64,000 bases of DNA from Neolewinella persica DSM 23188. Lineage in GTDB: Bacteria > Bacteroidota > Bacteroidia > Chitinophagales > Saprospiraceae. Below the pieces are notes generated by a model. The model saw only the letters and a program-made list of their open reading frames with translations. It did not search any database and had not been told where the DNA came from. The position numbers and the translations under genes are program-made. Of the stretch, positions 25,564-46,206 are shown piece after piece (position 1 is the stretch's first letter; every line of letters starts with the position of its first letter). The stretch covers positions 1 to 64,000 of the forward strand of contig NZ_KB890437.1 of NCBI RefSeq assembly GCF_000373105.1, given 5' to 3'.

Positions 25564-26556
25564 ATGCATCGCTACACCTTGCTTTTTGTGTTCCTATTAT
25601 TATCTGGACTAATGATCAACGCACAGGGCACTTTGAAAAAGGACCTGCCCTTTCTCCAAAAAAAAGCACATCTTTATCAGCGTTGGCTCGACAGTAAAAA
25701 TTTAGGATCACTACTCCAAGTAGATAGTATCCATCTTGCCAAAAACGACTTACAGTTAGAACTCTTTCTTAAATTAACCGAACCTGACCCCGACCGGGCT
25801 GCGGGAACCTGGAGGAGTTTACAAAATAGTTTTCAGCCTAGTCCAGGTGCTGAAACACTAGAAGCCAGTCTTTTCAACACATTTGTTCGTTTTACAGAGG
25901 TATCCCCAGACTCCGCCAACATACAAGTGTACATTCCGAAAGGCCACACTTACAACTCCTGCTTTTACGTGTGGATTTGGGAGGAAAATGGTTTGCTAAA
26001 ATTGATAGATAAAATCGATAACTGTAAATCACAGACTATTAACGTCGAAGTTCCCATTCAAAACTTTAGCACCTCTTCTACGCTGACCAATACCCGGATC
26101 AATGGTAAGGCTGTTGCCACAGATATATTCCGAGCAGTGCAAGACTTCGCTCGCGAAAAATACGAAGTCAAAAAAGAAAATTGCGAGGGCCGCCACCCAA
26201 AGGTACTTGCTCCTGAAGAACAAACAGATTACTATCTAGAATTCTATGTCGAAGACCTTTGCCGAGAAGTACTCATCGATGAAAAACAATCATTATGGTG
26301 CGATATCGTCGAAAGTTGGTGGGGGCCATGCAACGATATGCGCCGTGAGCGCCTCGAGTTTAAGATCAATCTTAACCAGGGTGCGCAGAGCTTTAACCTC
26401 AATATTGTGATCACCGGAAAATTTGGCTCTGGTAACTACCGCCCACGCACCGGCTGGATGGATATGGATCCAGATTTCGAAGAAGCCTTTCTGAAGCCTT
26501 ATGCTAAAGAGTTTCAGAAGCAGCTAAAACAATACTTTCTATCGATAAAACCTTAG
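25564..26556 (+). CDS. Secreted protein of an unrecognised island family (copy 1)
   Basis: 330 residues with a signal peptide (1-20, ending INAQG). I do not recognise the family, but it recurs at 30824-31792, inside 35571-39731 and as a relic at 46040-46206. Shared landmarks: YQRWLDSKNLGSLLQVD near the N-terminus, GTWRSLQNSF, an aromatic block around residue 120, paired cysteines (NCEG, DLCREVLID), and a C-terminal GKFGSGNY, then MDMDPDFEEAF, then LKPYAKEFQKQLKQYF. It heads a same-strand series with the EAD11-like membrane protein and the caspase-hydrolase. Its constant linkage to caspase and CHAT genes suggests a periplasmic sensor, inhibitor or substrate. Confidence 0.7.
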   Translation: MHRYTLLFVFLLLSGLMINAQGTLKKDLPFLQKKAHLYQRWLDSKNLGSLLQVDSIHLAKNDLQLELFLKLTEPDPDRAAGTWRSLQNSFQPSPGAETLEASLFNTFVRFTEVSPDSANIQVYIPKGHTYNSCFYVWIWEENGLLKLIDKIDNCKSQTINVEVPIQNFSTSSTLTNTRINGKAVATDIFRAVQDFAREKYEVKKENCEGRHPKVLAPEEQTDYYLEFYVEDLCREVLIDEKQSLWCDIVESWWGPCNDMRRERLEFKINLNQGAQSFNLNIVITGKFGSGNYRPRTGWMDMDPDFEEAFLKPYAKEFQKQLKQYFLSIKP

Positions 26557-26623
26557 GAGGTCCTCTTCTTTTTATAATCTTCGACTCTTCACCAGCAATC
26601 AGGATACAAAAAGCTCTTTCGGT

Positions 26624-27325
26624 ATGAACCACACTAAAGCTGACATCCGGAAAAACCTACAAGAAGGCCGAATGCGTACCGCACTTAATCAAGCCCTCGC
26701 TTACGCCGAGTACTGTAACCTTTCAGATGTCGTCAACGGTCTTACTACCCAAGCTGCCAAATTAGCCCTGCACGAAGATAATGCTATCAGTGGTTTGTTA
26801 GATTACACCACGGTCTCTCATTCTCAAGCACAATTAACTCATAACCTACTTGCCTGGACTGACCGACTCCCCGATGTCCCTAAACGGGCAAAAGGCAAAC
26901 GTAAACCGCTGCAGCTGCGCACTTTTAAAAATTTAATACTCTACCTCATTTGCTTTGCTAAAATAATTGTATTGGTCTGTCTTACCTACCTTCATTCATC
27001 TGGAAACTTCAATCAGTCAGAGTTGAAAGCAACGATTTCAGTTCTCCTACCAACTTTAGCCGTTTATGTATCCGTCATACTTTCTGACTCTCTGCGTAAG
27101 GAAAAATCGACGAGCCTTGACGCAAGTTATGTGAATGGTCCCCTTATCACTCTTTCCTTCGGGTTATTTCCCGTTTATATGCTATTTCTGATATTCTTGC
27201 TCAACGGAAAAGGACAAGAACGGTGGAACTTCAATGAAATGATAGTCTACCTAGCGTTAGTCGAAAGTGTTATTGGAGTTTACATTGCTTGGATAATTAA
27301 GGCTCATTTCAAGAATAATCAATGA
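26624..27325 (+). CDS. EAD11-like adaptor with four membrane helices (copy 1)
   Basis: 233 residues. Residues 5-85 (IRKNLQEGRMRTALNQALAY, then LLAWTDRLPD) have the helical pattern of effector-associated domain 11, a homotypic adaptor that recruits effectors in bacterial conflict systems. Four hydrophobic helices follow (about 105-128, 137-157, 172-192, 203-225), with short loops. The 45333-46040 gene is a paralogue with the same layout. It follows the secreted-family gene by 67 bases and precedes the caspase-hydrolase by 98. It may anchor cytoplasmic EAD11 partners, or the helices may form the membrane-attacking part. Confidence 0.7.
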   Translation: MNHTKADIRKNLQEGRMRTALNQALAYAEYCNLSDVVNGLTTQAAKLALHEDNAISGLLDYTTVSHSQAQLTHNLLAWTDRLPDVPKRAKGKRKPLQLRTFKNLILYLICFAKIIVLVCLTYLHSSGNFNQSELKATISVLLPTLAVYVSVILSDSLRKEKSTSLDASYVNGPLITLSFGLFPVYMLFLIFLLNGKGQERWNFNEMIVYLALVESVIGVYIAWIIKAHFKNNQ

Positions 27326-27423
27326 TTAATTTTATAGAAAGGCAGCAAGAAATAATATGGCGACAACTTTTTAATTTTTAAAGTTAAGTACTCCTTTCTT
27401 GTCTGAAAAAAATCTGTTCATCT

Positions 27424-30400
27424 ATGACCTTATTCGCCTTCCTTGTCTCCGTATCTGACTATCCTCCAGGAATAAGCTCTTTACCTGGTTGTAGGCATGA
27501 CCTTAAAAACATGCAAGACTTTCTTGGAGAATACTCTCGGATAAACAGTGTAAAAATGGCCCCTTTCGTGCTGAAGGATGAAAACGCGACCCGAAAGAAA
27601 GTCATTGAAGGGTTTAAACATTTCAAGAAAGCCAAAGCCGACGACATCTGCCTGTTTTACTACACCGGCCACGGTGCCCAAATGGTAGCTCCGCCGGAAT
27701 TTTGGCGGGATGAGCCCAGCCGAATGTGCCAGACGTTGGTATTGCACGATAGTCGGTTGCCGGGAGGCAGGGACTTAGTAGATAAAGAAATCAGCTATCT
27801 GCTGGCTACCCACGCCAAGGATGCGGGGCAACTATTGATGATTGCCGACAGCTGCCATTCAGGTACTATTTCGCGGTTGGCAACGGCGACACCTAGGACG
27901 ACCGCCGCAGCGGTAGGCATGCGATATGATGAACTGGAAGGATCGGAACATTACCTCAAAGATGGAGCATATCGTATTCCACTACACCGCGACCATATTA
28001 CCTTATCGGCGTGCCTAGCACAGCAGGTGGCGATAGAGATGCCCATCGGCGGCGTACCTCGCGGCTTGTTTACCTATTACCTGATCGAGACGATGAATGG
28101 CAGCCGGCTATCGGAGTTGAGTTATGCGGAACTGATGGACCGAGTACGGGTACGGGTAAAAAATCACTACCAAAATCAGGATGTCCATGCGATGGCAACA
28201 GGTGATAGTGACCTTGACCAACTATTCTTGGGTGGGAAGCTAAAGCGGGACCGCGCTTATTTACTACACCGTGGTAAAGATGACAAGTGGTTTTTCAACC
28301 AAGGTGCTGTGCAAGGGATTACAGTTGGTATGAGCGGGAAAGTACTTGTTGGCAAAGAAGAAAAGGTATTTACCGTTGACCAAGTACTTGCTGGCCGGGC
28401 TACGATTAAAAAAGTCGACTGGATGTTGCCAGGCGCAACGGATTACCCGGTCGTGGAGATGGATAAAGAAGAACCTCAACTAGCGGTTTTCTTCTCACCA
28501 TCCCTTGACGATTATACCCTAGGTAATTTGCTTGAAGAAATCAAAGAAGTCGGGTTTCAGTTAGAGGTCGTGACAAACAAACAGCAGGCAAAGTACCATG
28601 TCACCGTACTTAAAAATTATGGCCTCAGCCTAGTGCTCCCCGAAGAAGAACGACCGCTCTTTAGTAGCGAAACGGCTGACACCGTTGGCTGGGAGGAACG
28701 TTTTATCAATCGCCTTGCAAAGGTTGCTCGTTACGAGGCAACGCTGAGCCTGGCTCCTACGGAGCAGGTCCTCCCATTGGCTCAGGCCGTGGACGTAAGC
28801 TTTGAACAGGTTTATTTCAATAGTTCCGGAGAGGAAGTTAAGGCCGTTACGATGCAGACAGATGGATCGGCAGTCTTTGAGTACACAGAAATCATCCACG
28901 GCGAACAGCTCCCGCCTCGATTGCGGCTACGGGTAGCAATAAAAAGCGGTTACAGAGGATCGCTGTACGTTGGTGCACTCTTAATGGATGAGTCATTTGG
29001 CGTTTCAGCTAACTACATGGCTGTTAAAGAGATCACTTTTAGTGATCCATCTCATACAATTTCCTTGAGTGGTGAAAAAACCGACGGCACCAAGTACTAC
29101 TATGACTACCTCCCCATTGCCATCGACCAGACCCTGCGGGAATGGGGCTTGACGGAGATTCAGAATTATTTTAAAGTAATTGTGTCGGAGACCACTTTTG
29201 ATATGGCTGGACACGTACAGGAGCCATTGGATGCCCAACGCAAATTTGACCCGATGCAAGGCCGAAAGGTGGTTATGCCCGGGCCAACAGCGCAGCGACG
29301 GGACCGCTGGGCAAGCCTCAACATTCCCTTTCGTGTACGTCAGACGGTAGTAATACCTAGTCTTGGCGCTGCGGGGGATTCAGTAACCATCGTTTCCGCA
29401 CCTTCAGGTTTCAGCTGTGAAATGATGCGATTACATTCCTCGCTCTCCATAACCCGAACATTGCATCCTGCGGCCGCGCCCACTTGCCCTACTGAGGGTT
29501 ATGGACTCGAACCTGCCAGCATTTACCAGAGTCGGGGCACTGCGCCTCCCGTAGATGTGCTGGAGTTGGAAAACGTGACACATGCTTCCGCCGTTAGTGA
29601 CATGCACCCACTAGAGATTAAGGCAGAAAAACTAGCTAATGACGGGTGCCTTGCACTGGCCTACGACAAAGCAGCTGGTCGCTACTATCCCGTTGGGTAC
29701 CCCGACGCTGAACGCGGTATGATCATCATCCGGCAACTGCCCGAGCCCGAAGTTTCTCCAAGGAGTGACTCCATGATCAACGAAAAGAGTTTATCCGGGT
29801 CCGTGAAACTCTTCTTCCGTAAAGTAGTTGGAGATTACCTCCCGGGAGTCACAGCAACGGTCAACCAGCTACGCACGGTTCAGATAACGGAAGATTTGAG
29901 GGTTGTGTACGAAGACAAGGCACCCTCTGAAATAGTCGAAGATGTCACCAATTGCACAAAACCTATCGCCCTGTTCATCCACGGAATTATTGGCGACACC
30001 AGTCTTGCCCCTTCCATATTGGGTAGGGCCAAGCAGGCTAGTGACCAGCCAATACAAAATCTTTACGGCCTAGTACTGACCTATGACTACGAGAACCTGA
30101 ATACAGAATTAACTAAAACCGCAGAAGACCTTCAGGAGCAACTGCAAAAGGTCGGATTAAAACCTGGTCACGGAAAAACGCTGCACGTCTATGCACATAG
30201 CATGGGCGGGTTGGTGAGTCGTTATTTCATTGAGATGCTACGCGGCCATGAGGTAGTCAGTCACCTTGTACAATTTGGTACGCCAAACGGTGGTAGTCCT
30301 TATGGCAACGTTGCCCAATGGATCACCCCATTGTTAACTTATGGTCTTGGCGCTGGTGCGGCCTACCATCCGTTGTTTAAACCGTTGCTAGGTCTACGTT

Positions 30401-30780
30401 GGCTAGCCCCAAAACTATTGATCACGCTCCAGCAGATGAAAACCGGCTCAATTTTTCTGAAAGATTTAACGGAAAAGGGCGATCGCAGAGACGTCCGGTA
30501 CATTGTTATTAACGGTGACATCCGGTTGATCCCGGAAACGGGGGAATCAGACGCGGCATTCCTGGCCCGCGTTTTCGGAAATTTTGGCTGGCGAGAGGCG
30601 GTTGACCTGGTGTTTTTTCGGGAGCCGACCGACATAGCCGTTTCAGTGAACAGCCAACGGGAGATTCCTCTTCTAACCAGTGTAGCGCCGCCTGTAGGTT
30701 GTGATCACTTGAGCTACTTTACCAACCCCGCCTCCATTGCTGGGTTGGAAGGATATTTATCCGATATTTTTCCTGAGTAA
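27424..30780 (+). CDS. Metacaspase-like protease fused to an alpha/beta hydrolase
   Basis: 1118 residues with no signal peptide, so cytoplasmic. The caspase fold fills about 1-275: AFLVSVSDYPPGISSLPGCRHDLKNM, His83 in YTGHGAQ, Cys144 in ADSCHSGT. A long middle part (about 275-830) has strand-rich, unrecognised domains. The C-terminus is a lipase-like alpha/beta hydrolase: oxyanion-type LFIHGIIGD (His853), nucleophile Ser926 in AHSMGG, and FGTPNGG downstream. A copy of the dispersed element (29461-29482) is translated here as LHPAAAPT in the linker. Last of three same-strand genes. The pairing suggests a protease switch controlling a membrane- or ester-cleaving toxin. Confidence 0.8.
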   Translation: MTLFAFLVSVSDYPPGISSLPGCRHDLKNMQDFLGEYSRINSVKMAPFVLKDENATRKKVIEGFKHFKKAKADDICLFYYTGHGAQMVAPPEFWRDEPSRMCQTLVLHDSRLPGGRDLVDKEISYLLATHAKDAGQLLMIADSCHSGTISRLATATPRTTAAAVGMRYDELEGSEHYLKDGAYRIPLHRDHITLSACLAQQVAIEMPIGGVPRGLFTYYLIETMNGSRLSELSYAELMDRVRVRVKNHYQNQDVHAMATGDSDLDQLFLGGKLKRDRAYLLHRGKDDKWFFNQGAVQGITVGMSGKVLVGKEEKVFTVDQVLAGRATIKKVDWMLPGATDYPVVEMDKEEPQLAVFFSPSLDDYTLGNLLEEIKEVGFQLEVVTNKQQAKYHVTVLKNYGLSLVLPEEERPLFSSETADTVGWEERFINRLAKVARYEATLSLAPTEQVLPLAQAVDVSFEQVYFNSSGEEVKAVTMQTDGSAVFEYTEIIHGEQLPPRLRLRVAIKSGYRGSLYVGALLMDESFGVSANYMAVKEITFSDPSHTISLSGEKTDGTKYYYDYLPIAIDQTLREWGLTEIQNYFKVIVSETTFDMAGHVQEPLDAQRKFDPMQGRKVVMPGPTAQRRDRWASLNIPFRVRQTVVIPSLGAAGDSVTIVSAPSGFSCEMMRLHSSLSITRTLHPAAAPTCPTEGYGLEPASIYQSRGTAPPVDVLELENVTHASAVSDMHPLEIKAEKLANDGCLALAYDKAAGRYYPVGYPDAERGMIIIRQLPEPEVSPRSDSMINEKSLSGSVKLFFRKVVGDYLPGVTATVNQLRTVQITEDLRVVYEDKAPSEIVEDVTNCTKPIALFIHGIIGDTSLAPSILGRAKQASDQPIQNLYGLVLTYDYENLNTELTKTAEDLQEQLQKVGLKPGHGKTLHVYAHSMGGLVSRYFIEMLRGHEVVSHLVQFGTPNGGSPYGNVAQWITPLLTYGLGAGAAYHPLFKPLLGLRWLAPKLLITLQQMKTGSIFLKDLTEKGDRRDVRYIVINGDIRLIPETGESDAAFLARVFGNFGWREAVDLVFFREPTDIAVSVNSQREIPLLTSVAPPVGCDHLSYFTNPASIAGLEGYLSDIFPE
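29461..29482 (+). repeat. Dispersed GC-rich element, copy e (inside the caspase-hydrolase gene)
   Basis: TTGCATCCTGCGGCCGCGCC plus CA, in the sense orientation and in frame, encoding LHPAAAPT. It is preceded by CCGAACA, which resembles the AACATT upstream of other copies. The gene remains open through it. Confidence 0.55.
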
Positions 30781-30823
30781 TCGACCATTCGACGGCATAG
30801 TTAATGATGAGTATTACCCTTCT

Positions 30824-31792
30824 TTAATTTGAGAGCAAGTGTTTTTTTAATGACGTAGTAAAAAAGTCTGCGTAGATTTCAAGGTATTCATCAAAGTCAA
30901 CTTCCATATCGTGGTATCCTCCACGTTTTACTTCTTCGAAAAGACCAGAGCCATACTTTCCTTCAATCTCACAATACAAGCGAAACCCATCCTCTGTTTT
31001 CTGTTCTATGATGGTAAACGTCAGCATTTCTCGTTTGATCCAATTGCAATCATATCCAAGCCTTTTCAAGACTTTACAGGCTAATGGGTTGGCTTCATCC
31101 GTTAGCACCTCTTTGCATAGATTTTGCACCTCAAACCTGAGGACATGATCTTTTTGTAACACCTTGAATCTAGCTTCTCTTGATCCGCAGTTGCTACTAC
31201 CATATTTTTGTTCTGCATATTTAATGATGTTTTCGTAAGTGGTCCCCCTAGATTTTTCCAGATTTATTTCAGCTACAGCGTTACCCCTAAGCTTGCCTAA
31301 CTCTGCATTTGATACTACTACATTTCTAATTTTAGTTCTGCAGTTTATTTCTTTGGCCACGACGTCTCCTCCTTCAAAATAGACTTTCCTGACGAAACAA
31401 GGCTCCATTCCCCATTCGTAAGTATCATTCACCCACACCTTCATGTCCTCCTGTGGGATACTAAACAAATGGCAAGCACGATAAAACAGCTTCTCCTCCA
31501 AAGAGAGGGCTGATTTACTATCAAAAGCAACTTTAAGCTGTTTCCAGTTAGCAACTACTTTATCATAATTTTCCTCTCGAAAACCTAATTTTAGGTATAG
31601 CCTTTCACCATTTACCTTTATCTCTTTAACAATTAAAACCCTCCCTAACCCTACATGGTCCAGCCAGCGTTGATAAATTTCTCCTTGCGTCTCAAAGTAC
31701 TCTTGATCTTCAGTTAGTTGAGCGTTCCCAATATTGAGACAAAAGAAAATAATGGCGAGCAAAAGCGGATAGGGCCTACTTCCAGGGCTCAT
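30824..31792 (-). CDS. Secreted protein of the unrecognised island family (copy 2)
   Basis: 322 residues from the ATG at 31790-31792, which gives a clean signal peptide (MSPGSRPYPLLLAIIFFCLN). The longer frame to 31855 would overlap the CHAT gene. Same family as 25564-26556: IYQRWLDHVGLGRVLIVKEI, VVANWKQLKVAFD, PCFVRKVYFEGG, conserved Cys pairs, and the C-terminal GKYGSGLF, RGGYHDMEVDF, YADFFTTSLKKHL. It begins 10 bases after the stop of the CHAT gene, so the two are one operon. This is independent support for a functional tie between the family and caspase-clan proteases. Confidence 0.7.
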   Translation of the reverse strand: MSPGSRPYPLLLAIIFFCLNIGNAQLTEDQEYFETQGEIYQRWLDHVGLGRVLIVKEIKVNGERLYLKLGFREENYDKVVANWKQLKVAFDSKSALSLEEKLFYRACHLFSIPQEDMKVWVNDTYEWGMEPCFVRKVYFEGGDVVAKEINCRTKIRNVVVSNAELGKLRGNAVAEINLEKSRGTTYENIIKYAEQKYGSSNCGSREARFKVLQKDHVLRFEVQNLCKEVLTDEANPLACKVLKRLGYDCNWIKREMLTFTIIEQKTEDGFRLYCEIEGKYGSGLFEEVKRGGYHDMEVDFDEYLEIYADFFTTSLKKHLLSN

Positions 31793-31802
31793 AATTATTG
31801 AT

Positions 31803-33803
31803 TTATTGTAGTAATTGAAATGCCGACCAGTGATAAGGGGAACTATACTCTTCACTATCCATGAGTTCTAATTGAGTGTCGCGAAAAGCGATCTCAATTG
31901 AAACACCTTTAAGCCAGCGCTTATAAAACGTAGTCATAAAGTACTTTGCGGCATCATCCCTGACCGGCCATAAGGCGACAATCAAATTTTTAACTCCTGC
32001 AAGCTTTAGTCCCCTTTGAATACCAAAGATGCCTTCCCTAAGCGCAGATGCTCCCTTACCTGAGTTACAAGCTGATAAAACAACTAACTTAGTTTCAGTT
32101 AGGTCTTGTTGTGCAATCTCAACAGACGTCCATTGACCATCATGATCCATTCTATTTCGAAAGTACATATATCCATACCCAGACAGGATTACGCCAGAAT
32201 TCTTCAAGGTAATATCTGGCAAGTCCTGCCCTTGCTCATCCTTAATTATTTCACTATATCCATGGGTAGCTACGTGGATAACAGGAGGCGAGGCCTCCGT
32301 ATGGCCAAGTAAACGAAAGTAATCTTCCGATGCCTCGTCCTCAGTGATTGAAGCATGTGAAATATTAAGTACTTCGAGCAGGCCTGCAACAGCATTTATC
32401 TCATTAAGTGTTTCTGGTAATGAAGCATAGCTTTCTACCTCTTCTCTTACTGTTGTTTTTGGTGTATCCATGACTAAGTCGCAGGGCGAAGCGAGGGGAT
32501 CTTCAGGAACCTTTGCTGGCAACTCATAATCAATACCACCCGCCAACAGCCAGCATCCCTCTTGAGGCGCCATTGTTGGGAGGTACTTTTCGGGAACATC
32601 TCTGGTAGAACCAACCTGCACGATATTATATTTCTTCACCAACGGGGTGTTGTTCTCGTCTACCAATGCGGCAAAAGCAACACGCCCCATTACACCGGTA
32701 GGCGAAAGGTATAGCTTGTTATGACTACTTCCCAATACCTGACTAACTGGTGCCCAACAGAAGTCATACAATCTAGCAGCCCAGGATTGGTCTCCCAATG
32801 GGCCACCTCGTAGGTAAAATTTTGCTGCATTTTGATCATCAAGTTTGCGGACTAATGACTCCAGCTCAAGAGCTTTTCCTAAGTAAATCTTTTTAGGCTC
32901 ACTAGCTTCTCTTGTTAGCAGTACCGCGTAGTAGTGATAAACGCTATCCCATACACCATCCTTCAACCGCACTTTAAGGTATTCAATAGCGGCTTCCCTC
33001 GGGCCTAGTCTTCCTTGCACATCCTCCCATGATATGTTTTTTACAGCTGCCTGCTTTTGGATACTACTACCTATCATAAATTGAAAGTGCTCAACTGCTT
33101 CATTCGCTGTATTTTGAAAAGCCTCAATCTGATCTAAAGCATCACCTGTAGGAATTTCTACTGGTGATTTTTCCGGCGTTCCATCGAACGAGTTCAGTTC
33201 AACATTATATATAGAGAGGTCTTCCATCCGGGCCAAACGCCGTTTTCTTACATCCATCTCATCTGTAGTTACACGATCAATTTCCAACTCACTCAATTTC
33301 TCACGTAGCGCATAGTTATAAAAACTACTAGCACTAGATTTAAGGTTAGTGGAAGTTGCGGTTAGAATACTTGTAGCCCCAGACAAGAAGCTATTTCCTA
33401 CTGGCCTCAGTTCCTTTTCATCGCGTAGAACCTCTCTTTCTGCCTTTTCATGAGCTCTCACGCGCATTACACTATCGGCAACTTCCTGTCCGTATGCCTC
33501 AGCAAGCGTTTGCGGATACATTCTAGTCGCTATGACCTTTATTCCACCCATAGTTTCCATAATTGACGTCCCCTTATTTTCGGACAACTTAACCTTAGTT
33601 CCCACTTTAAAAAACTCCATTTTCTTTGTTACTTTCCACATTTCGTTACTTTCCAGCATGATCATGCCTGCGGAAGCTGGCCCTACAAACATCTTTACAC
33701 TGGTTTCATAAGGTAAATCTCTCGGCGCTTGAGCTAGTAGCGAAGTATTTAGGCCACTAACGATGAACAGCATGAAAATTGTTACGTAGTGAAAATTATG
33801 CAT
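31803..33803 (-). CDS. Secreted CHAT-domain protease
   Basis: 666 residues with an N-terminal signal peptide (about 1-24, ending LLAQA). The CHAT (caspase HetF-associated with TPRs) domain fills about 285-666, with the conserved AAIEYLKVRLKDGV entry, KLYLSPTGVMGRVAFAAL, catalytic His514 in IHVATHGY and Cys579 in VLSACNSGKG, then SLWPVRD-like ALWPVRDDAA and FYKRWLKG. The usual TPR array is absent. Residues 25-280 are instead a beta-rich start and a helical region that I do not recognise. Predicted location is the periplasm. It is divergent from the cytoplasmic CHAT gene across a 166-base region holding a perfect palindrome. Confidence 0.85.
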   Translation of the reverse strand: MHNFHYVTIFMLFIVSGLNTSLLAQAPRDLPYETSVKMFVGPASAGMIMLESNEMWKVTKKMEFFKVGTKVKLSENKGTSIMETMGGIKVIATRMYPQTLAEAYGQEVADSVMRVRAHEKAEREVLRDEKELRPVGNSFLSGATSILTATSTNLKSSASSFYNYALREKLSELEIDRVTTDEMDVRKRRLARMEDLSIYNVELNSFDGTPEKSPVEIPTGDALDQIEAFQNTANEAVEHFQFMIGSSIQKQAAVKNISWEDVQGRLGPREAAIEYLKVRLKDGVWDSVYHYYAVLLTREASEPKKIYLGKALELESLVRKLDDQNAAKFYLRGGPLGDQSWAARLYDFCWAPVSQVLGSSHNKLYLSPTGVMGRVAFAALVDENNTPLVKKYNIVQVGSTRDVPEKYLPTMAPQEGCWLLAGGIDYELPAKVPEDPLASPCDLVMDTPKTTVREEVESYASLPETLNEINAVAGLLEVLNISHASITEDEASEDYFRLLGHTEASPPVIHVATHGYSEIIKDEQGQDLPDITLKNSGVILSGYGYMYFRNRMDHDGQWTSVEIAQQDLTETKLVVLSACNSGKGASALREGIFGIQRGLKLAGVKNLIVALWPVRDDAAKYFMTTFYKRWLKGVSIEIAFRDTQLELMDSEEYSSPYHWSAFQLLQ

Positions 33804-34893: not shown

Positions 34894-35328
34894 TTAGCCC
34901 AACCCTTTCAGTTGTTCTTTTAGGTCACCAATTTCCTTGTCCAGGCTGAATTGTACGTTTGGATCGACAGCCTTTACTCGGGCTTCTTGTAGAAAGCTTA
35001 ATTTTTCTCTGATTATTTGCCGAAGAGGGTCGTCCATATCCGCCTTTTCAGAAATTGACGGCGAATCCTGTGTTGGTGGTGCGGCGACCTCCAAGTCGGC
35101 GGGGGTGATCTGGTCCACCAGGGCGAACGCCCGGTCGACGACTTCCTTACTACGGGCAGAATTTGTATTTCCCTGAATATAGGCTTCGGCATAACGATTC
35201 CAGTCTGCCTGAAGCGTACGGAAGGAACGGTTGAGCGAGGATGTGGGGTGCACTGTTTCTGACCACTCCGTGAAGAAAGCAGGGAGACGGTTTTGTGTAA
35301 GAAGATCGGAAAGTTTCTTGAGGGGCAC
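34894..35328 (-). CDS. Two-domain adaptor: EAD11-like plus iSTAND-type helical domain
   Basis: 144 residues without catalytic domain. Residues 1-78 (LKKLSDLLTQNRLPAFFTEW ... ALVDQI) have the EAD11-like helical pattern of the CHAT protein next door and of the membrane proteins at 26624 and 45333. After a Pro/Ser-rich linker, residues 100-144 (IREKLSFLQEARVKAVDPNV, then QFSLDKEI) match the N-terminus of the iSTAND-like protein at 40713-41798 (MQEKHAFLRTSRIKASDPLM, QFKLDKDL). If both halves bind homotypically, this protein would connect CHAT or membrane partners with the MoxR/iSTAND operon. Bridging is inference. Confidence 0.65.
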   Translation of the reverse strand: MPLKKLSDLLTQNRLPAFFTEWSETVHPTSSLNRSFRTLQADWNRYAEAYIQGNTNSARSKEVVDRAFALVDQITPADLEVAAPPTQDSPSISEKADMDDPLRQIIREKLSFLQEARVKAVDPNVQFSLDKEIGDLKEQLKGLG

Positions 35329-35570: not shown

Positions 35571-38500
35571 TCATTTTGTCTTAACAAAAACAAACTGATT
35601 ACCAGTTTCATGCCGCCCAAAATACTCCTTGACAGGTTGTGGTCTGACCGATGAAAAATCAGAAAACAGCTGGTTTACTGTTAAAAACCGATTTTCAAGT
35701 GTTGTACTTTTTAGTGATTCCATAATCCTCACTAGCATAGGAGACTTATCTGGAACGGGCTCATTACTTGAAGCAGCAATGTACACCCGCGTAAGGTTTT
35801 CATCATTATTAACCTCATCAATTGATAAATCACTTCGCTTATCTCCTAGATTCAATCCTGCATAATCAGCATCTATAATCAGTAGTATTTTGTTGCAGGA
35901 TATTTGATCAACTATCTTCACTAAGTCTAGAATATTAATTCCCGTAAGGGTACCTACCCCTTTAAAATCAGCGAGTGCGATGCCCGCAGAATTCTTGTTC
36001 CTATTTCGATAGCCATGACCACTAAAATAGATCAGAAGTTGATCGTTCTTTTTAAAGTTACGCCGCTTAAATTCCTCGAGTTGCGCTAACAACTCGGTTC
36101 TAGTTGGATTCTCTACACTATTAACATAGAAAGAGTAAGAATTTTCTAGTTCCTGAGCTAGATTTCTTGTATCCTTTACAGGATTTGCTAAATTTGGCAT
36201 CGTCGTGTATTCACTTACACCGACGAGCAACGCGTAGTTATTCCCTACAGTAATTTCTTCTGCGACGTCTCCGGGGCGATTAGAACGCTTAATTTCAATC
36301 GACTTCTGGAAGACATTTCGTAATGAATCTAGTACTTCTGCCTTGACTTGGATAGGCGATATAGGATTTGATTCTTGAATTTTTACTTCTGAATTTTCGT
36401 AGTAGATAGTTCGAGAGAATAGCGGCTGCTTTCTAAGATCGTAGGTATTGTATAGTTGTACATTAAGTAGATCTTTCCTGACTCTCATGTATCTGCTGGT
36501 TTGCTCTAATAAGGTATTTTCAACATCCTCCTTGAGTTTTGTTTCGTAGTATTCATTTAAGATACGCCAACTAGCTACTTGCAAAGCTAAATCGTTTGTA
36601 ATAAACTCCAAGTAAACTGATAACCCCTTCTCCTCTACATCTAACTCTCTTACTCGTAATATTTTGCCGATTCCTGTTGTGCTCAACCATTGTTGCAACG
36701 CTAGAGTCTGCATCTCGAAAGTATCTTTATACACTCTTAGATCACTTACTTCAGGCAGATATAGTATCTCTCTCGTAGCCAGGGGGGGGACTTCAGTCGC
36801 TACTCTTTCGTTGTCCTCTGTTCTGGAAGGAAGGAAGGATTCTGCTTGGTCAGTTCTAATTACCCTTTCATCAACTACACTGTCTACATCTATAGTGCTG
36901 TTTTCTTCATTGGTAATCTGCTCTGAATCCTCTGCTAACGTGCTATCAATTTCACTTCCTGATTGTTCTTCAGAACGTATAGCCCCAATTGGCGTACAGG
37001 TTTCAAGAATTAGTGCTTTTTTTCCTGAAACTATCATAAGTTCCGAAGCAGTTTGGAAAAAGTTACAGACCCCTTGGCTTTCTCTTTTTAACTGAAGACC
37101 TCGATTCCAAAGGAGAGCGCCTATATTTTTTCGGTGCGTGACATCAAGACTATCCTGAGCTTCCCAGTCAAGAAACTCTTGTAGTTTAATTGCTCCTTGG
37201 TTAAGTGCAGCGTTTCCATCGCTCGTTTTTGGAACGGGAGACAGATCCAAAATGGTCAAGGTATCAAGATCCTCAATTCTAGTTGCGCGACCGATCCGAT
37301 CTTGCCAGCGGTATTCCGCTAAAGTCAGACTGTCCGTTTTACTACATATTTGGATATTTAGGATTGTATCGGGACGGCCTAAACCCTCATAGACTACTGG
37401 CCATATAGTACTATCACATCGCTCATTACTTTGCTTATCTGGTTGCCACCACCACCCCACCAACATCACTAGTATGAACAATGGTAAAGCCCAAAGCAGC
37501 TGCCAAGTTTCGGGTTTTAAGCCTAACGCCCGATAGCCTTCGGGATAAAGGCGCTTATTCCAGCTTTGCGGCAGGGACAGGGGCAGGGTCCCGGCAGGTG
37601 GTTCATGGTTGAGGAAGCGAGCGACCGTAATATCAGGATCATTCCCCGTAGCAATGTCGCGAGCTAATTTTTTAGATAAGTTCTTCCGCTTGTCGGGATC
37701 ATCGAAGGCTAGCAGCCATTCATTCTGCAAGTGGAAGAAGTCTAGCTCGCGCTTGGCAACGGAGCCCTCGGGAGGTGGAGCGTTTTGCTCCAATGCCGCG
37801 AGGAGAGCAAGGCGCAATTTACGGTGGAGACCAGGGGCGGTTTGCTCCAACCAGCGAATGAGTTCATCCCGGGCGGTGACAGGAATTGTTCCTCCGGTGA
37901 ACCACGGCAAACGGGAAAGGGACAAAATATTACGGCTGGAGAGGAGGTTTTCGTTAGTGAATTCGCCGACTTTATGGCCAAAGAAGAGCGAAAGATCCCA
38001 ATGTAGCGTTGGGTAGAGGGCGCAGGCGGCGATCCACTGAGTTTGCGCTAGTGAGAAGTGATCCAGCAGGGAGCCGATGAGCGAGTTAGAAAAGAGGATC
38101 GGTTCCCGCTCGGCATCGTCAATTAATGCGCGGTAATCGACGGGGTCTTCGGGAGAGTGACCGTCGTTGGTTCGTTCAGCGAGAAGACGTAGACCCTGCA
38201 TACTAGCAGGAAGGACAGCAAAGAACTGGGAGAGTCGGCGCTCTTCGATACCCCATTCGTTGGGTGGACGGGTAGTAAGAAGGCTGCGGTTGGCCCAGAG
38301 AGAGAACTGGTCGTTGGCCCATTTGGTGAGTTTACCAGAGGCCGGATTAAGGAGGCGATCTCCTGATCCAACGAGGAGGAGACGACTGTTGGGAAAGCGG
38401 CGCTGAAGGTTTATCAGCGAGGTGGATCGACCGCGATTATCCTGAAAAAGAAGGCGAGGGTCACCGTCAAAGAAGTACCGTTCTATATAGACCTCCTCTG

Positions 38501-39731: not shown

Positions 39732-39734
39732 ATG

Positions 39735-40691
39735 CTAGTTGTTGAGGAGGAGTTGTCCGTCATTGAGTAGCCGTTGGAGAAGGTCAAGATCTTCTCGATT
39801 TTTGGCGAGTACAGAGAAAGAAGTTGCTAATTTTCTGGCTTCATCCTCCTGCAACTCACGACTAAGTGCCGCAGCGGGAAAATCCATACGGTTCAGAAGA
39901 TCAACCCAGTGGATAAGCTCGGCAGTAGCGGGTTTTTTACGAAGTTGTTTGGTTTTTCGACCGGTACGAAGTTCTGTGAAAAATCGGGTAAAAAAGCCGA
40001 GGTCAGCCGTGGAATAGCCGTCGGTTTTAGATTGCAGTATTCGCAATAAGGTCTCCTCATTTGGGAAATCGATATGGAAGAAAGTAACGCGCCGCAAAAA
40101 AGGTTCAGGAAGATTTTTCTCCGAATTAGATGTCATGATAACAAATGGCCGCGTAGCCGATCCTGCTTTGAAGGTAGCACCGGTTTCGGGCACCTCGAAG
40201 CGGAGATTTTCGAGTGCATATAGAACGTCGTTGGGTAAGTCACGCGGGGCTTTATCAATTTCATCGATAAGGACGACGTAGCGTTGTTTGCTATCCTGGA
40301 TGGCCTTACCAAGAGCTTCGTACTTTATGAAGCGCTTGGCGATGTCGGCAGCGCTTAGGGTTTCCTTACTCGTTTGGCTATGCTGAAAGTGGCCAAGGGC
40401 ATCGTAGCGGTAGAAGAGGTCACGAGCAGAGCTGGTTGTCTGCGCTGTGAAGACGAGGGGTACGGGGAGGCCGAAGGCGTGAGCAACGTGGAACGCGAGC
40501 TGAGTTTTACCCGTACCCGGCTCCCCGGTGAGCAGCAATGGCTGACCGAGATTGATCGCAACGTTAACTGCATTGACGAGACCGGGATCCGGAAGATAGA
40601 AAGCGGGGTTGTTGAGCTTCGGATTAAGGTTGATAGAGGGAAATTCCTGGGGTTCACCCTCACGCTCGTAGAAAGAAAATTTTTCGGCCAT
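39735..40691 (-). CDS. MoxR-type AAA+ ATPase
   Basis: 318 residues. Walker A GEPGTGKT (56-63), Walker B YVVLIDE (138-144), sensor-1 TSN (187-189) and an arginine-finger pair FLRR (198-201) show an intact AAA+ ATPase of the MoxR group. A helical lid follows. MoxR ATPases remodel vWA-domain partners. The vWA-like gene begins only 3 bases after this stop and the iSTAND-like gene ends 21 bases upstream, so the three form one operon. Such MoxR-vWA-third-protein sets are known as ternary conflict systems; here the third partner appears to be the iSTAND-like protein. Confidence 0.88.
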   Translation of the reverse strand: MAEKFSFYEREGEPQEFPSINLNPKLNNPAFYLPDPGLVNAVNVAINLGQPLLLTGEPGTGKTQLAFHVAHAFGLPVPLVFTAQTTSSARDLFYRYDALGHFQHSQTSKETLSAADIAKRFIKYEALGKAIQDSKQRYVVLIDEIDKAPRDLPNDVLYALENLRFEVPETGATFKAGSATRPFVIMTSNSEKNLPEPFLRRVTFFHIDFPNEETLLRILQSKTDGYSTADLGFFTRFFTELRTGRKTKQLRKKPATAELIHWVDLLNRMDFPAAALSRELQEDEARKLATSFSVLAKNREDLDLLQRLLNDGQLLLNN

Positions 40692-40712
40692 TGTGATAGT
40701 AGTATAAAATGT

Positions 40713-41798
40713 TTAGCGGGTGAGGTACCGGTAAATTTCGTGTTGGGCTAAGTCGATGTGGGTCATGTCAATAGTTCCATCCCGGTTGTAGCGGGCGTGA
40801 TGCTCCGGTGAAAGGCCCTCAATTACAATTTCGGTTAATTTCTGACGATTGAGGAGATTTTCTACACCAACACGTTTAAACCATTTTTCCAGATCGGTAG
40901 CAGGTACCGGCTTCAAGCGATTGATGTGTTTAACGATTTCGAACTCTTCTTCTAAAGCATCGAATATATTAAGGCGCTCCTTTACCTCAGAGGAGACGCC
41001 CGAGTCGTGATGTACGTTCTCGGCGTAGTGAATAAAGTTCAGCAGAAACTTAGGTCCTCCGGTAGCTAATTGCTGGAACTGTTGGATGATCCAGCGGTAA
41101 TACTTAGGGATAAAATCCTTCCAGTCCTCCTCCATGGTTTCAAAGGCTAGAAAGACAAAGTCAAACTCATAATTACTTTCCTCTCCAGCAAGAAAAGAAC
41201 GAATATCTTGGTCACCTTTGAGCTCAAATTCTTCCGCGATATACGACTCAAAAGCTTTTTGTGATTTACGAAAGGTCTTTCTAATTGGTAGGGGTCTTCG
41301 TGCCAACCATTTATCTTGCAGAAAGCATTTTATTACACCTAGGTCTTCATCACTAATACATTCTCTTAGAAGTCGGTCAGTAAAGCGATGAGGCATTTGC
41401 GTATCACAGGCCGTGATGAGATAAACCTGGTATTGATGTTCTGATTCTTCTTCGTCCAAAAGAAAACTACTCCAAAAAGTATCAACTGGTTTTTTTCGGT
41501 CACAATTTACACGATGTAATCGACCAATCTCGGTAGTCGGGTTAACCTCAAGTTCACTAAAATAGTCCCGTAGTTTACCTGCAGTCGGAAACGACTCGAG
41601 ACCTGAGGCACGGGCTGATGTGAAGCGTAAATCAGGGTGCTCTTTCAGCAGCGCGTCCATCTCTTCCTTTAACTCGCTCAAATCTTTATCAAGCTTGAAT
41701 TGCATCAACGGATCACTTGCCTTAATACGGCTGGTTCGAAGAAAGGCGTGCTTCTCCTGCATAAGTTTGAGCAGACTGGTGGGTGTATGGGTGGCCAT
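40713..41798 (-). CDS. iSTAND-like protein with N-terminal helical adaptor
   Basis: 361 residues and no signal peptide. Residues 5-50 (LLKLMQEKHAFLRTSRIKAS, then DPLMQFKLDKDL) match the second domain of the adaptor at 34894. The central part (about 85-290) starts IGRLHRVNCDRKKPVDTFW and continues QVYLITACDTQMPHRFTDRL. This fits the inactive-STAND (iSTAND) group, P-loop-like modules that lack Walker motifs and follow effector-associated domains. Indeed no Walker A is visible. The C-terminus (LEKWFKRVGVENLL ... IDLAQHEIYRYL) is a helical tail. First gene of the MoxR operon, so probably its signal-receiving component. Confidence 0.65.
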   Translation of the reverse strand: MATHTPTSLLKLMQEKHAFLRTSRIKASDPLMQFKLDKDLSELKEEMDALLKEHPDLRFTSARASGLESFPTAGKLRDYFSELEVNPTTEIGRLHRVNCDRKKPVDTFWSSFLLDEEESEHQYQVYLITACDTQMPHRFTDRLLRECISDEDLGVIKCFLQDKWLARRPLPIRKTFRKSQKAFESYIAEEFELKGDQDIRSFLAGEESNYEFDFVFLAFETMEEDWKDFIPKYYRWIIQQFQQLATGGPKFLLNFIHYAENVHHDSGVSSEVKERLNIFDALEEEFEIVKHINRLKPVPATDLEKWFKRVGVENLLNRQKLTEIVIEGLSPEHHARYNRDGTIDMTHIDLAQHEIYRYLTR

Positions 41799-41931
41799 TT
41801 AGTCCGTGGGTGAATTGTAAATATAAGGAACGTAGCCTTTCAGGCTAGATAGATTAGGACTAGCAACCCCAAAAACATTATCATCAGAAGCAAGTGCTCC
41901 TTCTAAAGAGCTACTAATATTTTCCAGGTTA

Positions 41932-42544: not shown

Positions 42545-42607
42545 GGCGCGCAGCGTCCCCGGCTCCTTCCGGCCTACGGCCTCCAGGAGCCGGGGACGCT
42601 GCGCGCC
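42545..42607 (-). terminator. Very strong hairpin after the IS256 transposase gene
   Basis: Two 23-base arms (42545-42567 and 42585-42607) are perfectly complementary, and the loop holds a further GGCC-TAC-GGCC hairpin. It starts 6 bases past the transposase stop. It probably ends the transposase transcript and may protect the element from outside transcription. Confidence 0.7.
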
Positions 42608-42613
42608 GCCCAC

Positions 42614-43849
42614 CTAGCGTCTTAGGTACTTGGTATATTCTTCTCCGTATTCCTCCATCAGCTCCCGTTGGACGGCTGCGAAGTTACGGACCGTCTTTGC
42701 CCAAGCTGTCTTAGTCGCTTGGAGCGTCAGGTAGACTTGGATCATTAATGACTTAGTCGACGGCCAACTGCCTTTGGTCTTAGTCGCTTTGCGTAAATGA
42801 CGGTTTACATTTTCTAGCGCGTTGGTGGTGTAAATTAGCCGGCGCATTTCTGGTCCGAAGTTCATGAAAACCATCAACTCTGTCCAGTCTTTTCGCCACA
42901 AGCGAACTACATGAGGGTACTTCTGCCATTTCTCTTCAAAGGCCTTAAGGGCTTCTACCGCCCCGTCCTCATCAATAGCCGTGTATACCGTCCGTAGGTC
43001 TTTACAGACTTTACGACGATCCTTAAAATCTACGCCGACTACGGAGTTACGCACCTTGTGGACAATGCAGCGCTGGAAGCGACTAGCTGGAAAATAGGTG
43101 CCTACTGCGTCGACTAAGCCTGGCAGGCCGTCAGCAACAAAGACTTTAATATCCTCCGCTCCGCGCTCCTTAAGATCGGCCAGGAGCACTGACCACTGGG
43201 AGGTGCTCTCTGCGCCACGTCCAGTATGCATGCTCAAAATGTCTCGATGACCATCAACATCCACACCATAGAAAAGGTAGGTCGCTACGCTGGTAGACTT
43301 ACCTTCAAGTCGAATGTTAAAGTGAATGGCGTCCATGAAAACGGCCACATAACAAGGTTGAAGAGCGCGTTTCTGCCAAGCCTGAACATCGTCCCAAACC
43401 TCGTTGACAATGCCCGTAATCGAAGCAGGGCTGATAACATGGCCAAACATTTCATGTAGGTGGTTCGAGATGTCTTGGTACGAGTTGCCGCGAGCATATA
43501 AGGATAGGATCTGCTGGCTCATATTCGGTGCCAAATCGTGCTGCCACTTGCCGACGATTGCTGAGTCATAGGTGCCTGTTCGATCTCGAGAGGGCTCAAT
43601 TTTAGTCGGGCCGAAGTCGGTATTAATTGATTTGTTCGCCTTACCCTTACGCTTGTTCGGCCGAGCATCCAAGCGTTCTGCTTCTAACTTTAGGTGCTCC
43701 CCAAGTTCAGCGGACATCGATTTCTCGATCACATGCTTTATCAACTCGGTGAGTACGCCCTCAGTGCCACTAAGGGGTTTGCCTGACATGAGCCCAGCGA
43801 TAATGTCGGACTCGAAGTCCGCGAATACTTTGTCTTTTTTACTTGCCAT
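42614..43849 (-). CDS. IS256-family transposase
   Basis: 411 residues, full length for the family. DDE-type signature blocks of the Mutator-like/IS256 group are present: VAVFMDAIHFNIR (first Asp), KVFVADGLPGLVDAV (second Asp), RFQRCIVHKVRN, and IYTTNALENVNRHLRKATK (Glu helix). No frameshift or internal stop, so it is probably active. Start ATG at 43847-43849. Confidence 0.92.
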   Translation of the reverse strand: MASKKDKVFADFESDIIAGLMSGKPLSGTEGVLTELIKHVIEKSMSAELGEHLKLEAERLDARPNKRKGKANKSINTDFGPTKIEPSRDRTGTYDSAIVGKWQHDLAPNMSQQILSLYARGNSYQDISNHLHEMFGHVISPASITGIVNEVWDDVQAWQKRALQPCYVAVFMDAIHFNIRLEGKSTSVATYLFYGVDVDGHRDILSMHTGRGAESTSQWSVLLADLKERGAEDIKVFVADGLPGLVDAVGTYFPASRFQRCIVHKVRNSVVGVDFKDRRKVCKDLRTVYTAIDEDGAVEALKAFEEKWQKYPHVVRLWRKDWTELMVFMNFGPEMRRLIYTTNALENVNRHLRKATKTKGSWPSTKSLMIQVYLTLQATKTAWAKTVRNFAAVQRELMEEYGEEYTKYLRR

Positions 43850-43896
43850 GATTCAATATCTGTGTTTTATGGCAGACACACATTTTTGAACACCCT

Positions 43897-45180
43897 CCTT
43901 CCGCGTGGGCACAACTCAAAGCTACAACACGTCGACTACATGACACGTCAAAAAAACGTACTCGTCGTCGGCGTAAGCTCCAAGACCAGCTTCGTTACCG
44001 TGACCAACTCATTACTCGGCTCCGGGCGGAGAACACCGAATTACGGGCACGCCTTGATCCAACCCCAGTGTTTAATTGCACTTACCCAGCCCAGATGATG
44101 ACCTTAGCGGTTTTCATTGTAATCAACGGCGGATCACTACGGTGTGCTGCGGCTACGGCTGGCTTTTTTGCAGAACTAATGGGATGGCCCTTCAAAGCAC
44201 CTGCTTTCAAAACCGTCAGCAACTGGGTAGAACGTTGCGGACTTCACGCTTTACAACTCACCAAATCGCTCCAGGGAGAATACGTTGCCATTATTGATGC
44301 CAGCATCCAGAACGGCAAGGAACAGCTAATGCTTTTGCTAGGCGTTGAAGCCGAGCGCGCCGCCCGCCTGGATCGCCCGCTGCGCGTGGCCGACATGAAG
44401 GTGCTCGGCATGGAAGTCCAGTCATCATGGAATGGTGATGAGGTGGCTGCATTTATCAGCCGCTCGATGGCCGAGCGTCCCGGTATCAGTTTACGATATG
44501 TCATCTGTGATCGGGGCTCCAATTTATTGGCTGCGCTAAGTAAGCTGGCTCTACCAGTAGTCAGTGACTGTAGCCATGTGATGATGAACATGGTCAAGAA
44601 ACTGTTCAAGGATGATGCGGCGCTAAGCAAGCTTAAGGCTAGCGTCGGCTTGCTACGCCAACAATTAACAATGACGGACAATGCCTTCGCTTTACCGGCT
44701 ACGCTGCGGGACAAGGACCGCTTCGGACGGATCTTCTTCTTGGTGAAATGGATGGAGCGAATTGATGACTACGGTACGGCACTCAACTCTGAACTGCGCG
44801 CTCGCTTGAATGCCGGACGCAACCGTTGGTTAGATTTACGGCTACGTCAGGTACAGCGACTCATGGTAATTACAGCCACTCGACTTAAATGCGAAGGGCT
44901 TAGTCAAGCCAGCCGTGATGGATGGATAAACGATGTGCTTGCCTACCTTCAAACGCAGCCACGACTAACCCAGCAAGCAAGAAGCTTTATCACCGGCATA
45001 ATGAATTATTTTAACGACCATGCCGACTTTTACGCTAACTGGGTCCGGATACAGTGCTGTTCGGATATCATTGAGAGCATCTTCGGACGTTACAAGAACA
45101 AGGGCGGCATGAAAGCCATCTCCGCTGACGTGTTATCCATTGCCATGTACAACCGCAAGATATCCGTCGACTTCGTATAG
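43897..45180 (+). pseudogene. DDE transposase-like gene truncated at its 5' end by IS256
   Basis: The frame is open from the IS256 boundary, without a sensible start codon, and reads RRRRKLQDQLRYRDQLITRL then AENTELRARLDP as a basic coiled N-terminal region before FNCTYPAQMMTLAVF. The catalytic-like residues are IIDASIQ, VICDRGSN, SDCSH and SDIIESIFGRYKN, the pattern of a DDE transposase of a family I cannot name. The missing N-terminus is not found left of IS256. The body from 44068 is uninterrupted, so a shorter protein could still be made from an internal start. Confidence 0.65.
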
Positions 45181-45332
45181 CAAGCCATAGGCCAAGTCAC
45201 CGGGCCGCAACTCGACGAGTGGCGGTGTCAAAACGTGTGCCACAACCGTTATGGAATCCGAAAACGCATGGAACGAGAGCTTAGAGAAAGCGCCGGAGGC
45301 TAATGAAATCAGATTAGACACCCTAGTCTTTA

Positions 45333-46040
45333 TCACCCCCGAAACAAGCCATAAACAACCTTTCCCAAATAAGCCCCGAGCCCACTTTCCACCAGCGCTA
45401 AAGATGCCGTGAATTGAGTAAAGGTAATGTTGCCAGGACCCCGGATATTAAGTAAAAGTAGTAGTGCTAGAGTATAGAGCATACAAAGCAAGTAAGTCAA
45501 TCGAGCAAAGCTCTTATTTACTCGGGCATCACCTGGCAGTAGGATGCTCCTATGATGGGTAGCATCCTGAATCATCAACGTGAGGTGAGCAGAAAAAAGT
45601 GGAACCAAGATACCCAGGCTGGCGATGAATTGATCATTACTAAAGCTTCCTGTACTCCATAGGATCGCGGCGAAGGTGATCACTGTACCCTTTCCGATTA
45701 ATAGGAACCAGAACAACCGTTTTTTCAGCGTGTCTTCAGCTACACCCTCAGGTTTGGCCTCGGCGGCAGACAGTGCCGCAGCATCGGGTAGTTGATCGAT
45801 GAGCGTGAGCAGGTTCAAGCTGAGCTCGTTACGCTTGCGGGCCAGGGCTGCCGGGTCGGTTGCTCCCGCAATCTGTTGTTCCTGGTAGCTGGTGAGTTGG
45901 CCAGAGTGGTTCAACACCAAGGTACGATAGTCGCCGTAGGCGTCACTAGCGGTAGCGCTCCGGAGTTTTTTACTGGAGGCTTCTAGGCGGTTGGCAGCGA
46001 CCAGGCGTCGGAGTTCATTTTTGAAATCTTCCTGTTCCAT
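45333..46040 (-). CDS. EAD11-like adaptor with four membrane helices (copy 2)
   Basis: 235 residues, a paralogue of 26624-27325. N-terminal helical domain (FKNELRRLVAANRLEASSKK ... LLTLIDQLPD, about 5-85), then four hydrophobic helices (about 108-128, 138-157, 175-197, 208-228). Matching positions include SxGxFxxxxxxASL before helix 2 and the GPGNITFTQF / NFNEM segment and the LALVES motif in the last helix. Its ATG overlaps the stop of the truncated island-family gene (TAATG), showing former translational coupling. Confidence 0.7.
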   Translation of the reverse strand: MEQEDFKNELRRLVAANRLEASSKKLRSATASDAYGDYRTLVLNHSGQLTSYQEQQIAGATDPAALARKRNELSLNLLTLIDQLPDAAALSAAEAKPEGVAEDTLKKRLFWFLLIGKGTVITFAAILWSTGSFSNDQFIASLGILVPLFSAHLTLMIQDATHHRSILLPGDARVNKSFARLTYLLCMLYTLALLLLLNIRGPGNITFTQFTASLALVESGLGAYLGKVVYGLFRG

Positions 46041-46206
46041 TATTTACAGTTTCGAAGGATTCTCGTAAGTTCAACTGTGAAAGTTTCGATGTACTTTTTG
46101 ATTGTATAATCGTAATCCAGTTCCATGCTGAGATAACCTCCTCGTTGGACGTTGGCATAAAGGCCAGAGCCTACCTTCCCGTCAATATCCCCAGTGATAA
46201 TTATTC
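46040..46206 (-). pseudogene. Island-family secreted protein, C-terminal relic (copy 4)
   Basis: About 55 codons remain, reading GKVGSGLYANVQRGGYLSME, then LDYDYTIKKYIETFTVELTR to the stop. This is the conserved C-terminal block of the family at 25564 and 30824. The IS1-type element at 46207-47026 cuts it off, and nothing of the N-terminus survives on the other side (only 56 bases before the next gene's stop). The gene order family protein then EAD11-membrane protein equals that at 25564-27325, so this is a damaged duplicate cassette. Confidence 0.7.

Follow-up and report, generated by a model that had tools for sequence, protein, structure and literature searches.

The window analysed here is a 64-kb stretch of DNA, the first 64,000 nucleotides of the 96.6-kb contig NZ_KB890437.1 of Neolewinella persica DSM 23188 (genome 7.08 Mb). 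Among genes for caspases and CHAT proteases it holds two complete genes for predicted secreted proteins of one family, to which we give the working name FAM, as well as a FAM domain fused to a pseudo-caspase and the relic of a FAM gene. The first complete FAM gene is followed by one for a four-helix membrane protein (working name 4TM) that carries an N-terminal EAD11 domain. Coordinates of all these genes are collected in Table 1.

A sequence-only reading of the window had taken the two complete copies to be one family, and their homology does extend from end to end (30% identity, E 6e-38); each has a signal-like start, and structure prediction gives FAM two domains. A profile built from database relatives (profile A1) finds four places in the host genome, namely the two complete copies, the domain within the 1386-amino acid (aa) gene and the relic, and the E-values of the last two (Table 1) establish both as FAM members and rule out a short chance motif as the source of their likeness. 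The fused domain is the N-terminal half of FAM only. The proposed C-terminal motifs (GKxGSGxY/F and MxxDF/DY...Y) were found in both complete copies and the relic. The N-terminal motif beginning (Y/L)QxWL had been assigned to all four places, which is too many: the relic cannot hold it because just C-terminal codons remain there, and copy 1 reads YQRWLDSKNLGSLLQV, so that it lacks the motif's first glycine.

No Pfam family matched the FAM copies at E 0.1, no NCBIfam or PADLOC family did so significantly, and no PDB sequence did so at E 1. A known Pfam or NCBIfam family was rejected for the 4TM part as well, none scoring over the curated cut-off, and no well-known unrelated family that would account for FAM emerged from Pfam or NCBIfam. 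Judged by these profile comparisons, FAM is a real and previously unnamed family. A collection of 5.8 billion sequences yielded 40 FAM proteins at E 0.01 (query included), or 43 by profile; FAM is present in 48 of the 398 genomes of the host's taxonomic family and in 8 of the 248 genomes of a wider order sample, one of these eight lying outside the host's family. The carriers are free-living Bacteroidota, the named records being mostly Saprospiria, such as Phaeodactylibacter xiamenensis, and no relative was found in collections of phages, plasmids and viral contigs. Because only the best 5 or 10 candidates per genome were scored in the searches for FAM and 4TM, their copy numbers are lower bounds.

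FAM and 4TM form the core unit

The core unit is secreted FAM plus 4TM. Neighbourhoods of up to about 10 kb on either side of FAM matches were surveyed for 73 copies (the window's four included), the loci being selected solely by homology to the secreted FAM protein, and the removal of six copies shorter than 200 aa left 67 that we count as full-length. Of these 67, 56 are followed on the same strand by a 4TM gene no more than 200 bp away: 21 of 21 in the main clade of a genus that we label g40 (the g40 clade) and 35 of 46 elsewhere, with 4-base overlaps between the two genes common. When the count is made from the other side, 58 of 62 4TM places adjoin a FAM match (counted by hand, two pieces at G183:C32 being taken as one), and 45 of the 47 family genomes with 4TM also have FAM (hypergeometric P 3e-53 over the 398 genomes, with related genomes treated as independent).

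In the main g40 clade 4TM stands alone (161-179 aa), and in the window and at most caspase-linked loci it has an N-terminal EAD11; hhalign shows the two to be homologues (probability 99.2 over 137 columns), and at L093 the domain order is reversed, 4TM preceding EAD11. The one FAM gene found outside the host's family is followed by a stand-alone 4TM, with no caspase or EAD11 on its 8.9-kb contig. The sequence-only reading had placed an EAD11-membrane gene beside two of the window copies; Pfam confirms the EAD11, but it is not the constant part, the commonest partner of FAM being 4TM. A tree of 65 FAM copies contains a 25-row clade in which FAM has a stand-alone 4TM or none and lacks an effector (support 100/97), a CHAT clade of 3 rows (100/98) and a group of 37 rows, most of them with EAD11-4TM and caspases.

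The structure model of the partner of copy 1 (26624-27325) has four EAD helices and four long helices (per-residue confidence score, pLDDT, 88.7). Its fourth-helix Glu, E214, is invariant in 25 of 25 rows of the EAD11-4TM alignment (A3) and in 29 of 29 rows of a wider 4TM alignment; in the latter one Pro and one Gly are invariant too, and a weak list of structural matches for 4TM includes V-ATPase ring subunits. At L134:8176-9653 the 4TM gene is overlapped by 4 bases by a gene for a 351-aa protein with an N-terminal hydrophobic stretch and Cys, weakly like the FAM C-terminus, which may be a remote relative.

Caspase, CHAT and EAD11 genes near FAM

Pfam confirms the caspase and CHAT neighbours that had been read beside the window's FAM copies, but is this tie general? 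Outside the g40 clade a caspase lies within 5 kb of 29 of the 46 full-length copies, a CHAT gene within 5 kb of 5, and one or the other within that distance of 32; without the window's own three copies the figures become 26 of 43 for caspase and 29 of 43 for either (by subtraction). For the 42 of these copies whose genomes have a caspase count (four lie in genomes without one), caspases were observed near 29 against 0.73 expected from the number of C14 per genome, and EAD11 near 33 against 1.29 expected, the window's three copies being included and related copies not being independent. The tie fails within the g40 clade (none of 21 copies, all 21 of which have 4TM); a family lying mostly away from caspase and CHAT genes thus describes that one clade and not the rest. 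The caspase tie is no mere accident of this locus, but it holds in a single branch of the family and is not what defines FAM.

These neighbours (caspase, CHAT, EAD11 and FGE) were found by profiles started from the window's genes, by which remote CHAT genes may be missed. Pfam was used to tally genes within two places of FAM (three for the g40 clade), with 4TM, FAM, frames under 100 aa and very long frames excluded. The 101 neighbours scanned out of 105 (one at L077, two at L088 and one at L106 were left out) gave Peptidase_C14 30 times, FGE-sulfatase 20, Fib_succ_major 7 and CHAT 3; the 84 neighbours in the g40 clade gave other families, e.g. GATase_5 (11) and YicC-like_C (8). Fib_succ_major may stand in for FGE in some caspases.

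The two halves of FAM and their likely compartments

FAM distances correlate with those of the 4TM domain at 0.79 (30 EAD11-4TM pairs) and with those of the caspase at 0.60 (n = 20, Mantel P 0.0002), but do both halves of FAM contribute alike? At the same 20 loci the correlation with the caspase is 0.65 for the N-terminal half and 0.53 for the C-terminal half, and with 4TM it is 0.69 and 0.85, respectively; the caspase is thus tracked better by the N-half and 4TM by the C-half. This order held in every leave-one-out and at five split points. The combined difference stayed above zero throughout the bootstraps (up to 2000), while the single comparisons failed in 0.75% and 0.05%.

Signal-like starts and catalytic motifs were judged by crude hydropathy and pattern rules. 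A signal-like start is found by these rules in 62 of 65 FAM copies and in 53 of 59 neighbouring caspases (the fusion excluded, fragments kept); 54 of these 59 keep the His and Cys motifs. Control caspases, which are the 20 best-scoring places of a C14 genome search and not a random draw, have a signal-like start in 12 of 23 frames, and the stretches around these 20 places contain no FAM, 4TM or EAD11. In EAD11-4TM proteins (25 rows) Lys + Arg average 3.2 ahead of the first helix and 3.7 in the inner loop; the two outer loops have 0.4 and 1.3 and the C-terminus has 1.7, a distribution of charges around the helices that favours a cytosolic EAD11.

Genes of the window

Table 1. FAM genes of the window and the genes around them (positions in the 64-kb window)
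Feature	Position	Strand	Evidence
FAM copy 1, predicted secreted two-domain protein, 330 aa	25564-26556	+	Profile E 3.2e-96
FAM copy 2, predicted secreted, 322 aa, no 4TM adjoining	30824-31792	-	AlphaFold2 model pLDDT 87.6
EAD11-4TM partner of copy 1, 233 aa: EAD11, then four membrane helices	26624-27325	+	EAD11 E 2.2e-9; 4TM match
Membrane protein ending in FAM N-domain and pseudo-caspase, 1386 aa	35571-39731	-	Three hydrophobic stretches; C14 E 5e-15
FAM N-terminal domain in the fusion, model positions 23-178 of 324	36294-36752	-	E 2e-30
Pseudo-caspase domain of the fusion, residues 1163-1383	35583-36245	-	Catalytic Cys replaced by Asp (DADYAG)
Relic, last 56 codons (stop included) of a FAM gene	46040-46206	-	Profile match 46046-46204, E 1.2e-14
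EAD11-4TM gene after the relic, 235 aa	45333-46040	-	EAD11 E 5.6e-8; 4TM E 2.9e-43
Secreted caspase-FGE upstream of the relic	47083-48918	-	Pfam; DACH
Secreted caspase-FGE, divergent from copy 1, 93 bp away	23632-25470	-	Pfam C14 + FGE-sulfatase; signal-like start; DACY
Second secreted caspase-FGE	21703-23520	-	Pfam; DACH
Caspase (C14), no signal-like start, C-terminal hydrolase-like DUF7379, 1118 aa	27424-30780	+	Pfam; DSCH; domain from residue 4
Secreted CHAT protease just upstream of copy 2, same strand	31803-33803	-	Pfam CHAT E 2e-48; signal-like start
CHAT protein, no signal-like start, 309 aa	33964-34893	+	Pfam CHAT E 4.8e-13
AAA ATPase adjoining the fusion gene, MoxR-like by our reading	39735-40691	-	Pfam AAA_5 E 1.2e-13
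Mutator-family transposase between fusion and relic clusters	42614-43849	-	Pfam Transposase_mut E 4.2e-90

The hydrophobic stretches of the fusion protein span residues 110-128, 279-297 and 742-760, and its FAM domain would be periplasmic if the N-terminus is cytosolic. Its caspase domain keeps GHG and reads DADYAG where the other window caspases read DAC or DSC; since Asp occupies the position of the catalytic Cys, the domain is a pseudo-caspase, as had already been proposed. The fusion fits a physical contact of FAM with the caspase side.

Among the copies compared, the closest to the fused N-domain (49% identity over 132 residues) and to the relic (76% over 54 residues, at the C-terminus) is the one at locus L120 of G015, a congeneric genome. 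The order there, caspase-FGE, FAM, EAD11-4TM, is the order kept at the relic locus, and the gene at 45333-46040 is by eye close to L120:10682-11389, which adjoins the intact G015 copy. A single ancestral gene may have been split into the fused N-domain and the relic.

On either side of the MoxR-like and fusion genes lie 34894-35328 and 40713-41798, which have a stretch in common (IKASDP..QFKLDK / VKAVDPNVQFSLDK) and are perhaps a further adaptor pair. Farther along, 50084-51457 encodes a Rep3-type plasmid replication initiator (Pfam Rep3_N) and 57917-59518 a member of the phage integrase family that weakly matches AAA_16; this 96.6-kb contig is possibly a plasmid or an integrated element.

EAD11 in the host genome

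EAD11 occurs in the host genome at 18 places over the curated cut-off and at one weaker place. The proteins that carry it include EAD11-CHAT (L158), SIR2_2-EAD11 (L153), EAD11-iSTAND (L166), EAD11-TPR and an EAD11-LRR protein whose EAD11 is slightly under the Pfam cut-off; at L174:6641-11028 the neighbour of an EAD11-CHAT gene encodes a 1140-aa C14 caspase. Compared by eye, the start of this protein is similar to that of the window caspase 27424-30780, which comes after the EAD11-4TM of copy 1. According to the available portions of Kaur et al. (PMC7159879, PMC8195603), shared EAD adaptors are expected to bring effectors to a core component. Two traits of such systems are seen with EAD11 in this genome: the same EAD on several proteins, and an EAD on a core component as well as on effectors (iSTAND, CHAT and SIR2_2). 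Joined to this principle, the host network makes FAM-4TM-EAD11, on this reading, an envelope input. A different membrane protein (243 aa, C-terminal EAD11) at L171:2484-5875 is flanked by 409- and 436-aa proteins with signal-like starts, an arrangement similar to the pairing of a secreted with a membrane-EAD11 protein.

Comparison with known systems

Apart from supplements, the open-licence literature in the portions available to us gave no description of the FAM-4TM pair. In the same form those sources treat bacterial caspase/EAD systems mainly as responses inside the cell (PMC7159879, PMC8195603). The EAD-coupled conflict systems described there, including the MoxR-vWA ternary ones, resemble the present loci in having a small adaptor common to the core component and the effectors of one genome and in using peptidase effectors, and here a MoxR-like gene adjoins the fused copy; they differ in that the protein carrying EAD11 here is a four-helix membrane protein whose partner is the secreted, two-domain FAM, and in that the adjoining caspases are mostly secreted. 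The two-gene EACC1-caspase system (PMC7159879, from the part available) likewise couples a caspase gene to a conserved partner gene, but the FAM partner is secreted and neither FAM nor 4TM has a Pfam match over the cut-off; the two FAM copies gave no Pfam match at E 0.1, which speaks to EACC1 only if the Pfam copy holds a model of it. Zorya (PMC11890865, in the text at hand) also combines a complex in the inner membrane, part of it periplasmic, with an effector module that stands apart, but here caspase and EAD11 replace motor and nickase, a comparison made by description and not by sequence. For prokaryotic metacaspases, the accessible part of PMC3501461 gives the C14-FGE architecture for 33 of 671 sequences and its presence in Haliscomenobacter; many FAM-neighbouring proteins have this architecture, but that part makes no mention of a secreted partner or EAD as found here.

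The FAM C-domain may resemble helix-grip folds of the SRPBCC/Bet v 1 kind and the BamC N-domain (best Foldseek E 0.0077), a fold likeness that shows no function, and FAM has no SRPBCC- or BamC-like profile match among PDB sequences at E 1 or in Pfam at E 0.1. Bacterial gasdermins are freed by caspase-like proteases. They resemble the FAM loci in pairing the gene of a caspase-like protease with that of a possible membrane-acting protein, but the proteases here are mostly secreted; no gasdermin family was found in Pfam for FAM, nor over the cut-off for 4TM, though such a fold may still escape the structure list.

A possible role for FAM and 4TM

The best-supported explanation, to which we give about an even chance of being right, is that FAM is the periplasmic half and 4TM the inner-membrane half of a two-gene envelope receptor that signals to cytosolic EAD11 effectors. 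The coupling of the genes, their co-occurrence in genomes, the EAD11 on 4TM, the adjoining secreted caspases, the EAD11 effectors of the host, the distance correlations of the two FAM halves and the charges that favour a cytosolic EAD11 all speak for it, and in the fusion it is the FAM N-domain alone that is joined to the pseudo-caspase. Such a receptor could work as follows: the FAM C-domain would dock on 4TM and the N-domain would meet the secreted caspase, with the EAD11 of EAD11-4TM facing the cytosol; a change in the periplasm (ligand binding, or the caspase acting on FAM) would be relayed through 4TM, whose EAD11 would then recruit cytosolic effectors that carry EAD11 too. The FAM-4TM core of the caspase-free clade would signal without the caspase and EAD11 parts.

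A number of observations weigh against the receptor. Neither caspase nor CHAT nor EAD11 genes lie within 5 kb of the 21 full-length copies of the g40 clade, and the split that sets off the caspase-linked FAM group is weakly supported (77/82, midpoint root). Loci L074, L097 and L105 have neither 4TM nor a caspase within 5 kb, copy 2 of the window has no adjoining 4TM, and genomes G018, G185 and G208 have FAM without 4TM; 4TM lacks an adjoining FAM match in G005, G041:C46 (FAM is on a different contig of G041), G162:C184 and G424 (where the 4TM match spans just 24 positions). The fusion is not recurrent, being found in one genome of 398 among the matches listed, and it lacks both the FAM C-domain and 4TM. 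The half correlations rest on 20 loci of common ancestry, a kinship that bootstrapping taxa does not remove, and EAD11 distances split the halves poorly (N 0.77, C 0.80) although EAD11 is on the 4TM protein. The 4TM topology is a charge and hydropathy estimate in which one outer loop (1.3 Lys + Arg) is hardly below the C-terminus (1.7). With most caspases secreted and EAD11 predicted to be cytosolic, the two may not share one pathway, and the contact of FAM, 4TM and caspase, like cleavage and signalling, is a proposal drawn from the genes.

A fuller form of the receptor model, which we hold to be doubtful, likens it to a death receptor, in bacterial form: the secreted caspases, many of them with FGE tails that resemble lectins, would act on or bind the periplasmic switch FAM, and the signal would pass from FAM through 4TM and the death-domain-like EAD11 to EAD11-CHAT and EAD11-SIR2 effectors. 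Other lineages would have re-used the FAM-4TM core, either together with CHAT proteases or without any protease. Slightly less credible still is that FAM is a periplasmic brake on 4TM, the latter being the killer (membrane-disrupting or ion-conducting) which secreted caspases free by cleaving FAM, much as caspase-like proteases free bacterial gasdermins, and which EAD11 assembles from the cytosol.

The view that FAM is chiefly a substrate or inhibitor of secreted caspases and CHAT proteases, roles among those proposed in the sequence-only reading, and that 4TM just anchors it at the membrane, seems to us rather improbable. Where FAM lacks an immediately downstream 4TM (11 copies), it still lies next to a caspase or CHAT gene or is fused to one in 8 cases, a count that also speaks for the receptor; FAM and most adjoining caspases are predicted to be secreted, and N-half distances track the caspase better than C-half distances do, all as this view would have it; but the C-half tracks 4TM (0.85) more than the N-half tracks the caspase (0.65), and the caspase-free clade has kept 4TM beside all of its full-length copies. 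That FAM is paired with a membrane adaptor makes a sensor or switch more likely than a free inhibitor. Least probable is that FAM-4TM is an independent envelope module which landed among caspase and EAD genes by defence-island clustering only: per-genome counts do reach 24 C14 and 42 EAD11, and caspases lie on either side of FAM in both orientations, but the excess of caspases near FAM over expectation, the fusion of EAD11 to 4TM itself, the mostly secreted kind of the adjoining caspases and the FAM-caspase distance correlation are all at odds with it.

If the receptor model is true, a dedicated receptor would connect death effectors in the cytosol to caspase-clan proteases located outside the inner membrane, and the use of secreted caspases in these Saprospiria would become testable. 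FAM and 4TM, two unnamed families, each gain a defined partner and a domain-level hypothesis.

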